DNA of 64,000 bases from Sulfitobacter sp. (GTDB lineage Bacteria; Pseudomonadota; Alphaproteobacteria; Rhodobacterales; Rhodobacteraceae): positions 62,001 through 126,000 of the forward strand of contig JAQXCD010000053.1 in the NCBI GenBank assembly GCA_029252045.1, written 5' to 3'. Position 1 is the stretch's first letter, and each line of letters begins with the position of its first letter. Of this stretch, positions 22,119 to 55,255 are shown piece by piece. The notes under the pieces were generated by a model. That model was not told the DNA's origin, did no database searches, and saw nothing but the letters and a program-made list of their open reading frames with translations. Made by a program: the position numbers and the translations under genes.

Positions 22119-22202
22119 GGGAGTCTCCTTGGTCAATTTGGAGGGGTGTTTTTCGTACACCCCCTGTACACCCCCCGTACAACGGGGTGGCGGACGTATG
22201 GG

Positions 22203-50400: not shown

Positions 50401-50536
50401 ATTTCTGCACTTGCGGGGTCATAAAATTACAAAATGAAGCCTCTAGTGGTTGCAATGTTTCGCGAGCAACCCTAATTATTCCTCAAGAGCCGCGATTCTG
50501 CACTGCGGCACCCCATATTTTCTACAGGAGACCGAC

Positions 50537-51817
50537 ATGGCACTGGATACAACAATCGCGCAATACGAGGCCCCCGAAAAAGACCTCTACGAGATGGGTG
50601 AAATGCCCCCGATGGGCTATGTGCCAAAACAGATGTATGCGTGGGCAATCCGCCGCGAGCGTCATGGCGAGCCTGACAAAGCGATGTTGCAGGAAGTTGT
50701 CGATGTGCCTGCGCTGGACAGCCAGGACGTGCTGGTTCTGGTGATGGCGGCTGGGGTTAACTACAATGGCGTTTGGGCGGCACTTGGTACGCCGATCAGC
50801 CCGTTTGACGGCCACAAGCAGCCCTACCACGTTGCCGGCTCCGATGCCTCGGGCATTGTTTGGGCGGTGGGTGACAAGGTAAAGCGCTGGAAAGTCGGCG
50901 ACGAAGTTGTGATCCATTGCAATCAGGATGATGGCGACGACGAGGAATGCAATGGCGGCGACCCGATGTATTCCCCGACCCAGCGCATCTGGGGCTATGA
51001 GACGCCAGACGGCTCGTTCAGCCAGTTCACCCGCGTGCAGAGCCAACAGTTGATGCCGCGCCCCAAGCACCTGACATGGGAAGAGGCGGCCTGCTATACG
51101 CTGACGCTGGCCACTGCTTACCGCATGCTCTTCGGTCACGAGCCGCATGATCTGAAGCCGGGCCAGAACGTTCTGGTCTGGGGTGCCTCCGGTGGTCTGG
51201 GCTCCTACGCGATCCAGTTGATCAATACCGCAGGCGCCAACGCCATCGGTGTCATCTCGGACGAAAGTAAACGCCAGTTTGTGATGGATCTGGGCGCCAA
51301 AGGCGTACTGAACCGCAAGGATTTCAAATGCTGGGGCCAGCTGCCCAAAGTTGGCAGCGAGGAATACGCGACCTGGTTTGCAGAGACACGCAAGTTCGGC
51401 AAAGCGATCTGGGACATCACCGGCAAGGGTGTGAACGTCGATATGGTGTTTGAGCACCCGGGCGAGGCGACCTTCCCGGTTTCCACCTTTGTCGTGAAAA
51501 AAGGCGGCATGGTTGTGATCTGCGCAGGTACTAGCGGATTTAACCTGACGTTCGACGTGCGCTATATGTGGATGCACCAGAAGCGTTTGCAGGGTTCGCA
51601 CTTTGCCCACCTCAAGCAGGCATCCGCCGCAAACAAGCTGATGATGGAGCGCCGTCTGGACCCTTGCATGTCGGAAGTGTTCGCATGGAACGATCTGCCC
51701 GAAGCCCACATGAAGATGATGCGCAACGAGCATAAGCCGGGCAACATGTCCGTTCTGGTTCAATCGCCAAAAACCGGCCTGCGCACGTTGGAAGACGCGC
51801 TGGACGCTGCAAAGTAG
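50537..51817 (+). CDS. ccr: Crotonyl-CoA carboxylase/reductase
   Basis: This 426-residue medium-chain dehydrogenase/reductase reductively carboxylates crotonyl-CoA to ethylmalonyl-CoA with NADPH and CO2, the key step of the EMC pathway. The N-terminus with MGEMPPMGYVPKQMYAWAI, the VMAAGVNYNGVWAALG stretch and the NADPH motif VLVWGASGGLGSYAIQL are characteristic. AGGAG precedes the ATG at 50537; an in-frame start at 50450 lacks support. Confidence 0.96.
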   Translation: MALDTTIAQYEAPEKDLYEMGEMPPMGYVPKQMYAWAIRRERHGEPDKAMLQEVVDVPALDSQDVLVLVMAAGVNYNGVWAALGTPISPFDGHKQPYHVAGSDASGIVWAVGDKVKRWKVGDEVVIHCNQDDGDDEECNGGDPMYSPTQRIWGYETPDGSFSQFTRVQSQQLMPRPKHLTWEEAACYTLTLATAYRMLFGHEPHDLKPGQNVLVWGASGGLGSYAIQLINTAGANAIGVISDESKRQFVMDLGAKGVLNRKDFKCWGQLPKVGSEEYATWFAETRKFGKAIWDITGKGVNVDMVFEHPGEATFPVSTFVVKKGGMVVICAGTSGFNLTFDVRYMWMHQKRLQGSHFAHLKQASAANKLMMERRLDPCMSEVFAWNDLPEAHMKMMRNEHKPGNMSVLVQSPKTGLRTLEDALDAAK

Positions 51818-51844
51818 ACCAATTTGCCATTCGATGATGGTCTG

Positions 51845-51890
51845 AATGCCCCGCGATTTGCCATTGGTGATCGCGTGGCATTTTCGTTTT
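51845..51890 (+). terminator. Terminator after ccr
   Basis: AATGCCCCGCGAT and ATCGCGTGGCATT form a 13-bp stem with one mismatch around a 12-base loop, followed by TTCGTTTT. It begins 27 bases after the ccr stop. Confidence 0.75.
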
Positions 51891-52034
51891 GGAAGCTGTT
51901 TTAATTAATTCAATTACTTAGGAAATTGCCCCTCCCCATTTTTGGGGAGTAGAAATGCGTGAATGGAGAGGATGTTTCATGCTATGCTATGGTTGCATTG
52001 ATGAATTGTTAACAACTTTAAGGTGAATATCGCA

Positions 52035-52253
52035 ATGCGAAGTGATTGGATTTTAGACGTTCTTGCCGACTTGCGTAGTTTTGCCGAAGCCAATGATCTG
52101 CCGCTACTTGCAGAACAGCTCGACGATACAGCGTTGACAGCCACGGCCGAGATCGCCTCAAAAGACGAAAGGTCTGCAAGCAGCGCGTATGTTGGTGACG
52201 TTAGACAATCTCGAGTCCCTGTTGTCCGCCTTGGAGCAGTCGGACAGTCTTGA
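52035..52253 (+). CDS. Small conserved-type protein upstream of luxR (72 residues)
   Basis: The frame starts at an ATG after AAGGTGA and begins MRSDWILDVLADLRSFAEANDLPLLAEQLDD, a pattern I associate with small proteins placed before luxR in Rhodobacteraceae. It overlaps the start of luxR by 65 bases in another frame. Its last 15-20 residues therefore read through luxR codons and look non-conserved. The 3' end may have been altered, or the overlap may be genuine. Confidence 0.6.
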   Translation: MRSDWILDVLADLRSFAEANDLPLLAEQLDDTALTATAEIASKDERSASSAYVGDVRQSRVPVVRLGAVGQS

Positions 52254-52911
52254 AGGGATGCAGCGCGTCATCGAGGCGCTGCGCGCCCACTATGGTGTTG
52301 CGCATCTGGTCTATCATTGGGTTGATTCCAGAGGTGACCAATACGGCTGCGGCACCTATTCTGACGCGTGGCGGCAAAAATATCTGGATGAAACCTATCT
52401 GCGCATCGATCCTGTTGTTCAGGGCTGCTATCAGCGGTTCCATCCGGTGGACTGGAAGCGGCTGGACTGGTCCAGCAAGGCCGCGCGCGAATTTGCCAAG
52501 GTCGCGGCTGAATACGGCGTGGGCAATCAGGGCTTTTCGATACCCATTCGCGGCCCGAACGGGCAATTTGCGCTCTTTACGGTAAACGATACCTGTGACG
52601 ATCGAACATGGGCGGGTTTTACCCAATCCAACCGCCGTGACCTGATCCTGATCGCCCATTACTTCAATGAAAAGGCGCTGGAATTTGAACCTGCCCGCCA
52701 ACCCGGACAACAGCAACCACTCTCTCCGCGTGAGGTCGATGCGATGACCTTGATTGCTGTCGGCTATAGCCGTGCACAGATTGCAGACCGTTTGTCTATC
52801 TCCGAGCACACCTTGCGCGTCTATATCGAGAGTGCGCGTTTCAAATTGGGCGCATTAAACACGACCCATGCAGTTGCGCGCGCAATGAGCCGTGGCCTGA
52901 TTGTGGTCTAG
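52189..52911 (+). CDS. luxR: LuxR-family autoinducer-binding transcription regulator
   Basis: This 240-residue protein has an N-terminal autoinducer-binding domain, with the aromatic/acidic set in YHWVDSR, TYSDAWRQKYLDETYLRIDPVV and VDWKRLDW. Its C-terminal LuxR helix-turn-helix is LSPREVDAMTLIAVGYSRAQIADRLSISEHTLRVYIESA. It should bind an acyl-homoserine lactone and regulate genes. It lies 116 bases before a broken luxI, so it may now act as a LuxR 'solo' sensing signals made by others or by another synthase. Confidence 0.88.
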   Translation: MLVTLDNLESLLSALEQSDSLEGMQRVIEALRAHYGVAHLVYHWVDSRGDQYGCGTYSDAWRQKYLDETYLRIDPVVQGCYQRFHPVDWKRLDWSSKAAREFAKVAAEYGVGNQGFSIPIRGPNGQFALFTVNDTCDDRTWAGFTQSNRRDLILIAHYFNEKALEFEPARQPGQQQPLSPREVDAMTLIAVGYSRAQIADRLSISEHTLRVYIESARFKLGALNTTHAVARAMSRGLIVV

Positions 52912-53027: not shown

Positions 53028-53674
53028 ATGCTGCGATATGTCTATGCTGACCAACTAAACCAATGTCCACGCCTTAAAGACGAGATGTTCACCCACCGGG
53101 CCGATCAATTCCGCACACGGCTGGGCTGGGATGTCTCCGTCGATGCGCGGGGGCACGAACGTGATGAATACGACGCGCTCAACCCGCTCTATGTGATCTG
53201 GGAAACGGCTGAGGGCGGCCACGGCGGGTCCACCCGTTTTTTGCCCACAACGGGCCCTGTGATGGCGAACGACCACTTTGCCCATCTGGTTTCAACCCCC
53301 ATCCGCAGTCCGTTGATCTGGGAATGCACGCCCTTTTGTATGGCGCCGGGGCAGGGGCCAAACGTCGCTGCTGCGCTGATGCTGGGCGGCGGAGAGCTGA
53401 TGAACGGTTTCAGCATCCGTCACTTCGTGGGTGTATTTGATGCCCGAATGGTGCGGATTCATTGCCGTGTCGGCTCGTCTCCTGAAGTGTTGGGAAGTAC
53501 GGGGGAAGTACGGGGGAAGGACGCAACAGGATTAGCGTTGGACTTTGGGAGTTCGATCTGGAGGCCCAGAACCGCGTCGCAGCGCGTGCAGGTATCGCGC
53601 CGGCGCTGAGCCGTGCGTGGTTTGATCGCGCGTTCGGGCCGGAACCTGTGATGGAATTTGCCGCAAGCGCCTGA
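53028..53674 (+). pseudogene. luxI: Acyl-homoserine-lactone synthase (luxI) frameshifted by an 11-bp tandem duplication
   Basis: The first 160 residues read as an AHL synthase. They include the family residues Arg24, Phe28, Trp34, Asp46, Asp49, Arg70 and Glu99, and GVFDARMVRI, SPEVLGSTG. At 53492-53519 an 11-bp unit is duplicated, after which the frame changes and ends at 53609 with a nonsense tail. Removing one unit restores GEGRNRISVGLWEFD and then an open frame to the TGA at 53672-53674, giving 211 residues. In addition, position 102 is Pro where LuxI proteins keep an invariant Arg (Arg104 of LuxI). The encoded enzyme is probably inactive. Confidence 0.85.
53492..53519 (+). repeat. 11-bp tandem duplication in luxI
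   Basis: The unit GGGAAGTACGG occurs twice in tandem (53492-53502, 53503-53513) and is followed by GGGAAG, so 17 bases match at a period of 11. Eleven is not a multiple of three, so the second copy shifts the luxI frame. Slippage could remove it again. Confidence 0.92.
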
Positions 53675-53716: not shown

Positions 53717-55255
53717 ATGACCAAAGAGCTTACATATTCCGACGATCAGGCCGCCGCCTACGACGCCGTCTGCACCATGCTGAAATCGGCAGGCATCAGT
53801 CTGGAGGACGATCTGCTGATGCCGCCCAAAGGCGACAAGCCGCAAGTGATGGCTGTGACCGGCAAGGCGGGGTCGGGCAAGACCTTGCTGCTGGCCGAGC
53901 TGTACCGCGCGCTGGAAGAAGCGGGTGTTGATATAGTGTCGGGTGACTACGAGAGCAAAAAGCGCAAAGACAAACGCACGCTGGCTATTCTGGCCCCTAC
54001 AAACAAGGCGGCAAGCGTGCTGCGTCTGCGCGGTGTGCCCGCGACCACCATTCACCGTATTCTCTATACGCCGGTATACGATCCTGAATACGAGCGGATT
54101 GCCGAATGGCTGGCCGGCAATGGCGAGCGGCCTGTTGATGTCGAAGGTTTGACGGATCTGGCGTTGGACCGCGCCGCAGCGTTCTATGCCAACAACAAAT
54201 CAATTCCCGGTGCATTGGCTGCCGCTGGCCTGCGCGGCAGTGATTTCATCACAGGCTGGAAACGCCGCGAAGAGCCGCTGGACATCGGGTTTGTTGATGA
54301 ATCCTCGATGCTGGATGACAAGCAGTTCGAAGACCTCAAAGAGATTTTCCCGACGTTGTTGTTGTTCGGTGATCCCGCACAGCTGGCTCCCGTAGGTCAA
54401 TCCGGCACAATGGTATTCGAGAAATTGCCGCAAGAGCGTGTGATGAACCTGAACCGGATTTTCCGGCAGGAAGCAGACAACCCGATCCTTGATCTGGCCC
54501 ATGCGCTGGCCGATCCCGACATCGGGTTCGAACAGTTCGAGCGGATGGTGGAGGACGCGTCAAAGCGTGACCCGCGTGTGGTCTGGGGCCAGCGGGTAGA
54601 GGTGGACCTCATGGCCCGCTCGCCCGTTTTGGTCTGGCGCAATGCCACCCGCATCCGCCTGATCAACGCGTTCCGCAACGTACACGGCGCGCCCGAAGAT
54701 GCACTGGTCGAGGGCGAGCCGCTGATTTGTGACGGGATCGAGCTGCCGTTGAAGCACCGAAAAAAGCGCCTTGATCTGGAGGCGCGCGGCCTGATCAAAG
54801 GCGCGCAGGTGGTGTATCTGGGGGCGGGTCGCAAACCCGGCTTTTCCCGCCTTCATGTGATGGGCGCCGAAGACCCGCAGGTGAGTGCCGCCAGCATCGT
54901 GAAAATTGAAAAGCTGGATGAGGAAGAACCGTTTATTCCCTTTGCCGCGCGCATGGGGGCTATGTTCCTGCATGGTGCTGCTGTGACAATCCACAAGGCG
55001 CAGGGCAGTCAGTGGGATACGGTGCAGGTCTTTGCGCCCGATCTATACGCCGCCGCCCGCATGGGCCGGATGGAGGCGGGCCAGCCCCTGTGGAAGCGCC
55101 TTGCCTACGTGGCAATTACCCGTGCGCAGGACCGCCTGATCTGGGTGGTGCGGAACCGCCTATCAAAACCGGCTTATGCCCTGAATGTTGATGATTTGCG
55201 TGCAGCACCTGCGGCCGCCCTGACGCTGGATACAACAGAGGAGGAATTTGGATGA
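53717..55255 (+). CDS. RecD-like superfamily 1 DNA helicase
   Basis: This 512-residue ATPase has Walker A VTGKAGSGKT (Lys55), a Walker B region GFVDESSMLDD, the GDPAQLAPVG motif III and the C-terminal TIHKAQGSQWD plus YVAITRAQDRLIWV motifs of the RecD/UvrD C-terminal type. It is shorter than RecD2 and is a common Rhodobacterales AAA/helicase of unassigned role, probably in DNA repair. Its stop overlaps the SDR gene start by four bases. Confidence 0.85.
   Translation: MTKELTYSDDQAAAYDAVCTMLKSAGISLEDDLLMPPKGDKPQVMAVTGKAGSGKTLLLAELYRALEEAGVDIVSGDYESKKRKDKRTLAILAPTNKAASVLRLRGVPATTIHRILYTPVYDPEYERIAEWLAGNGERPVDVEGLTDLALDRAAAFYANNKSIPGALAAAGLRGSDFITGWKRREEPLDIGFVDESSMLDDKQFEDLKEIFPTLLLFGDPAQLAPVGQSGTMVFEKLPQERVMNLNRIFRQEADNPILDLAHALADPDIGFEQFERMVEDASKRDPRVVWGQRVEVDLMARSPVLVWRNATRIRLINAFRNVHGAPEDALVEGEPLICDGIELPLKHRKKRLDLEARGLIKGAQVVYLGAGRKPGFSRLHVMGAEDPQVSAASIVKIEKLDEEEPFIPFAARMGAMFLHGAAVTIHKAQGSQWDTVQVFAPDLYAAARMGRMEAGQPLWKRLAYVAITRAQDRLIWVVRNRLSKPAYALNVDDLRAAPAAALTLDTTEEEFG

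Follow-up and report, generated by a model that had tools for sequence, protein, structure and literature searches.

What becomes of a quorum-sensing locus in which the synthase gene is interrupted and the receptor gene beside it is open? This question is raised by a luxRI locus in the window, the whole 64,000-nucleotide stretch of DNA analysed here, which sits in contig 53 (131,053 bases) of a draft, Sulfitobacter-like assembly (3.08 Mb, 68 contigs, 90.17% complete). The nearest named relatives of its luxI, among the best 80 of 181 relatives, are Sulfitobacter. We take the two flanking genes to be a crotonyl-CoA reductase gene (ccr) and an ATP-dependent helicase-type gene, by recognition and from the published gene order considered below (topology B). 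We judge it quite probable that luxI was recently inactivated by a microhomology-mediated duplication together with a change to proline at residue 102, that the locus is on its way to becoming a LuxR solo, and that it is one case of a process that recurs in the genus.

Table 1. Features of the luxRI locus, in window coordinates.
Feature	Position	Strand	Remarks
ccr, crotonyl-CoA reductase gene	50537..51817	+	Left neighbour, conserved; start at ATG 50537 assumed, ORF list gives 50450-51817; synteny in genus
luxR, 240-aa receptor/regulator	52189..52911	+	Open; autoinducer-binding domain and GerE HTH
luxI-type AHL synthase, 193-aa frameshifted ORF, probable pseudogene	53028..53609	+	PF00765, 64.1 bits, E 1.6e-17
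Codon 102, Pro (CCC)	53331..53333	+	All other LuxI sequences compared have Arg
11-bp tandem array, 2.9 copies: two exact GGGAAGTACGG and near-copy GGGAAGGACG	53492..53523	+	Source of the frameshift
luxI conserved C-terminal part, 52 codons	53516..53671	+	Open, frame differs from that of the start; two-frame tblastn and translation
ATP-dependent helicase-type gene	53717..55255	+	Right neighbour, conserved; matched in 60 of the 62 genus genomes, counting the window's

The gap between ccr and luxR (51818-52188 in the window) measured 345-376 bp in each of the 16 genomes in which it was listed; the window's contains a short open stretch that begins with an ATG at 52036. A scan for promoters and terminators gave results at chance level.

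The 11-bp array and the frameshift in luxI

The luxI reading frame resembles a normal AHL synthase over about 160 residues (PF00765 score of 64.1 bits against a curated cut-off of 24) and is then shifted at an 11-bp array, giving a product of 193 aa. The initial annotation had reported an exact 11-bp tandem duplication in this gene, and the repeat is indeed present: GGGAAGTACGG lies at 53492-53502 and again at 53503-53513. It had counted two copies, which holds for the exact pair but misses an imperfect third, GGGAAGGACG at 53514-53523, that brings the array to nearly three. Because the first codons of the conserved tail lie in this third copy, an imperfect pair probably existed already. TRF described the array as period 11 with 2.9 copies, 95% matches and a score of 57, the second highest of 22 rows. 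The lag-11 self-match at the array was 17 bases, the maximum in the window for lags of 4-60, and a match of that length was reached in none of 30 first-order Markov simulations (maximum 15).

The frameshift was borne out by tblastn, with the orthologues from G055 and G041, two genomes of the genus, as queries (211 aa each). Residues 1-169 aligned at 53028-53534 and residues 156-211 at 53504-53671, so that two frames were needed to cover the gene, and these met at the array. The complete C-terminal part of luxI is thus out of frame with its start. Within the shifted-frame tail, all 10 checked columns that are invariant in 30 relatives were kept (column 159, inside the array, was left out); this preservation supports the earlier suggestion that the loss is recent, as far as sequence can indicate age. 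An array at the same place was absent from 93 distinct relatives, in which lag-11 self-matches around codons 150-172 reached 5 at most, and also from 37 genus genomes, in which the maximum was 6 as against 17 in the window. Among the relatives whose tails were listed, none ended with the window's shifted tail.

The sequence signature suggests how the array may have formed. GGGAAG starts all three copies, the third of them imperfect, at a spacing of 11 bp. Codons before the conserved tail would have carried an imperfect 11-bp repeat (GGGAAG twice, 11 bp apart), a spacing that in the window's lineage would have arisen from the codons themselves, with the last, imperfect copy standing where the native tail motif lies. 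One exact 11-bp copy would then have been added, either by slippage during replication or by repair through microhomology; with the frame shifted, about 33 unrelated residues would have taken the place of the enzyme's last core strand and of two helices. A passage of the review PMC13207564 describes, for fungi, tandem duplications mediated by microhomology and notes that they can revert. The extra copy here is likewise bounded by a short motif repeated one unit apart, if that motif pre-existed as we infer; unlike the fungal cases, the gene is bacterial, no reversion was observed, and with two lesions present a reversion would not be enough.

A frameshift in a draft assembly may also be an error of the assembly or consensus, in which case the true cell would hold a single copy and an unbroken frame. 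Assemblers err at tandem repeats, and the present assembly is a draft of 68 contigs; we nevertheless regard this reading as improbable. The array lies inside a 131-kb contig, and a natural duplication would be expected to leave just such an exact additional copy next to a near-copy that was already there. In a two-frame scan against G055 and G041, 58 and 64 ORFs, respectively, had a match of at least 50% identity, and 7 of the 58 and 13 of the 64 were not covered to 90% by a single match. Two and three were flagged, luxI in both comparisons, and luxI was the only flag judged to be a real frameshift against the two relatives. True decay is also indicated by three unusual substitutions in luxI, Pro102 among them (see below).

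A generally error-prone assembly was considered and set aside when three other two-frame flags, weighed against the ORF lists, were judged not to be genes. The flags at 28.3-30.6 kb and 32.0-32.8 kb came from queries antisense to likely genes, and the one at 44.8-46.0 kb is most likely an over-long ORF spanning a 257-aa gene.

Similar period-11 sequence occurs elsewhere in the assembly. A stretch at 22154-22181 of the window, of the GTACGGGGGGT type (palindromic TGTACA), sits a short way upstream of where an ORF probably starts and is like the luxI unit at 9 of 11 positions after rotation and reverse complement; a second GTACGGGGGGT-type stretch (G000 contig 20:276610-276629) is like it at 9 of 11 by rotation. 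A dispersed 11-mer family was taken as coincidence: the common pattern had three matches in the assembly at no more than two mismatches, luxI included, and a reversed-pattern control had none.

Residue 102 and the predicted product of luxI

The second lesion that had been proposed, proline at residue 102, proved to be exceptional. We compared luxI with the best 80 of 181 confirmed relatives and 29 loci from other genomes, 109 loci in total, of which 93 were distinct over the 465-base head. Position 102 was arginine in all 93 of these and, over every LuxI-like stretch among the collected loci, in 124 of the 124 distinct ones other than the window's, from 28% identity up (the distant ones at 28-36%); a check for relatives sharing the proline found none. 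The position aligns with the WExxRF arginine of the AHL synthase 3p2f and of LasI (1ro5), in which it is R104 by a count on the alignment. A passage of PMC5539150 lists R104 among the key LuxI residues, and the others in that list (R24, F28, W34, E44, D46, D49, R70 and E99, with numbers mapped to the window) were all kept.

The frame had been described as otherwise clean. This is so for the tail at the columns checked, as reported above, but two further invariant positions of the head differ: V80A and Y145H, with R102P, make 3 changes among 69 columns invariant in 30 relatives. As a control, 9 of the 93 relatives departed at least three times at columns conserved in 95% of relatives, and one of the nine (L085) is itself another broken luxI.

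AlphaFold2 models were made of one intact relative and of the window's product. The intact relative (mean pLDDT 89.0) has strands at 97-105, running through Arg102, and at 165-170, and helices at 174-184 and 188-199. In the window's product (mean pLDDT 80.4) the first strand covers just 97-100, ahead of the proline, and block pLDDT is 47-60 past residue 150. Most likely, the luxI product is dead twice over, once through the shifted tail and once through the replacement of Arg102, which would be a further lesion; this predicted loss of activity is what the two sequence changes lead us to infer.

It had also been suggested that luxI was under weak selection before the frame was lost, a view that received mild support from the three changed head columns and from distances. 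Ranked by mean distance to up to nine outgroups, the window's luxI stood first of 12 (0.340; mean of the others 0.298, sd 0.020), and its neighbours luxR and helicase each ranked 5 of 12 and ccr last, 6 of 6. The luxI dN/dS between the window and G042 was 0.032, with dS saturated at 2.65, indicating that most of the history of luxI passed under constraint. The data weakly suggest a relaxation of selection that was at most modest and earlier than or simultaneous with the loss.

These results bear on two readings in which the gene is not lost. The initial annotation had proposed that the repeat might act as a phase-variable switch, its copy number varying in the population so that signal synthesis is turned on and off. 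Two exact tandem 11-bp copies can contract in principle, and the tail is undamaged at the checked columns. The proline, however, persists in any copy-number allele, so that contraction alone would leave it in place; an array is absent here from every relative compared, none of which was found to be of the same species; and the pattern in the genus is one of outright loss, not of reversible states. Contingency repeats are usually longer, and 2.9 copies would be short for one. We find a switch very unlikely, and the locus looks like gene decay in progress rather than an on/off device. Also very unlikely is that luxI works as it stands, which would require that Pro102 be tolerated and that slippage of the ribosome or of transcription at the G-rich array put the tail back into some of the products. 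The array does contain G5 runs, and the tail is conserved in the -1 frame; against this, inspection by eye for a canonical slippery heptamer revealed none in frame around the array, and the proline occupies the place of an otherwise invariant arginine.

Loss of luxI across the genus

We surveyed 62 genomes of the genus, the window's own included. For 60 of the remaining 61 the site was retrieved, or as much of it as the contig held (G004 was without a match). Strong matches were found to the window's LuxR in 53 genomes, to its luxI in 37 and to the helicase in 60. The genes of the ccr-luxR-luxI-helicase site were placed by tblastn. Both luxR and luxI were found at 35 sites, luxR only at 14, and neither at 8; three sites were decayed and two unclassified (G050, whose site ends at a contig edge, and G004, in which nothing was found). 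At the luxR-only sites luxR lies 64-230 bp ahead of the helicase and is without stops, and at the sites with neither gene ccr lies 141-198 bp ahead of it. Two of the luxR-only genomes, G022 and G036 (L253, L254), have a LuxR at the site that is just 50% identical, which may perhaps reflect receptor replacement or fast divergence after luxI loss.

The decayed class consists of the window, G028 and G059. In G028 (Sulfitobacter brevis by identical sequence; DSM 11443, L041 / L283), luxI has a TGA at aligned codon 3 and luxR extends over two frames; this decay is independent of the window's. G059 (L255) retains a luxI fragment and a luxR with an in-frame TGA at aligned codon 94. The reverse of the window's case occurs in G044 (L279), counted among the 35 sites with both genes, in which luxR has an in-frame stop at aligned codon 51 and luxI is open.

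A tree of ccr and helicase codons from 59 genomes (G004, G006 and G050 were missing), midpoint-rooted and with losses counted as irreversible, gave 10 losses of luxI and 6 of luxR. About ten luxI losses is our count; 8-10 is the fairer statement because some deeper nodes are weak (support of 0.069 at one relevant node), and luxI might also have been regained through transfer. On this tree the window pairs with G018 as its sister (support 0.968). G018 lacks both luxR and luxI, and the pair was counted as a single luxI loss but may represent two. After luxI loss, LuxR was kept in four other lineages on the tree.

Broken luxI genes also occur outside the genus, and those among the matches listed serve as examples, not as a rate: Tateyamaria sp. 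Alg231-49, G366 and G465. In the Tateyamaria genome (G357; L085, from 3001, is the same as L147), luxI is frameshifted near residue 145 and the conserved tail is open in another frame. The other two genes have one in-frame stop each and are otherwise open, with a TAA before the VIG motif in L191 (G366) and a TGA right after WECTRF in L192 (G465).

The arrangement is a known one. A passage of PMC3824088 describes topology B of the Roseobacter luxRI locus as crotonyl-CoA reductase, luxR, luxI and helicase, and reports orphan LuxRs in two Sulfitobacter strains. The window agrees with topology B in gene order and orientation, and the genes are orthologous in the genus; what it adds is the frameshift and Pro102. 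LuxR solos are reviewed in PMC10134790. According to a passage of PMC4338825, luxR solos lie between crotonyl-CoA reductase and ATPase/helicase genes (group 2) in other roseobacters, and loss of LuxI is the likely origin of solos whose binding domain is conserved; Sulfitobacter is absent from the list of group 2 genera in that passage. The flanks of the group 2 solos and of the window are alike, and the window, still carrying a decayed luxI, is intermediate.

LuxR solos at the ccr-helicase site, and their origin by luxI loss, are thus already published, and a single luxI pseudogene would by itself be ordinary. The proposal of that origin (PMC4338825, same passage) drew on a comparison of species that have luxI with species that lack it. 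Here, one genus holds an intermediate beside 35 both-gene, 14 luxR-only and 8 empty sites, a natural series that lets one ask why cells quit signalling yet keep listening. Our search, in a literature that covers few subscription journals, found no paper combining luxI, a frameshift and Sulfitobacter, and neither an intermediate state nor a counted recurrence of luxI loss within this genus was found there. In one further known case the receptor was likewise kept after synthase loss; the loss is old there, and recent and repeated here.

The receptor beside the broken gene

The luxR of the window stands without an intact adjacent synthase, as had been claimed. Its product scores 128.8 bits for PF03472 (autoinducer-binding) and 46 bits for PF00196, and it is changed at 1 of 116 columns that are near-invariant in paired LuxRs. 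The broken luxI is the only PF00765 match in its own assembly, which is 90% complete and could therefore lack a further synthase gene. Probably the cell has retained a receptor of the AHL type but does not make the signal that fits it, and the best reading of the locus, as predicted from its sequence, is a LuxR solo in the making.

LuxRs left alone appear to be maintained. For six pairs within luxR-only clades, luxR dN/dS was 0.038-0.121 (dS 1.71 in one pair), and for three pairs with luxI it was 0.050-0.079; the corresponding helicase values were 0.012-0.022 and 0.021-0.049. Between G057 (luxR-only) and G040 (both genes), luxR dN/dS was 0.164. These values indicate that LuxRs left alone are still constrained, much as paired ones are. 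Lone LuxRs have changed at some columns that are fixed in paired LuxRs, so that they may now bind a different ligand.

The whole locus might instead be decaying neutrally, luxR included, with luxR intact just because the event is recent. This reading overlaps our preferred one and differs from it only in whether luxR is being kept. The absence of both genes from the sister G018 favors it, as do the damage to both luxI and luxR in G028 and G059 and the luxR stop in G044. Yet luxR is without stops in 14 genomes after luxI loss, with the low within-clade dN/dS given above, and the window's own LuxR has changed at a single conserved column. We consider neutral decay of the whole locus a serious possibility, while leaning toward a luxR that is being kept.

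If luxR is indeed being kept after luxI decays, the ten or so losses of luxI, with the receptor often retained under selection, could mark a passage from signallers to listeners that respond to the AHLs of neighbours with both genes. The window would then be an early step in this passage and its sister G018 the last. We offer this reading tentatively and rate it as rather doubtful; if true, the selective value of eavesdropping could be tested by comparing sister lineages.

How strictly such receptors are solos depends on the rest of the genome. At least one PF00765 match was found in 56 of the 62 genus genomes, and among the 14 luxR-only genomes, 12 carry a further, distant match at another place; G019 and G057 have none. 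By this distribution, the strict term would apply only to G019, G057 and, within its 90% completeness, the window's genome. That assembly also holds three more PF03472 matches besides luxR (L003, L004 and L005, on G000 contigs 59, 54 and 55).
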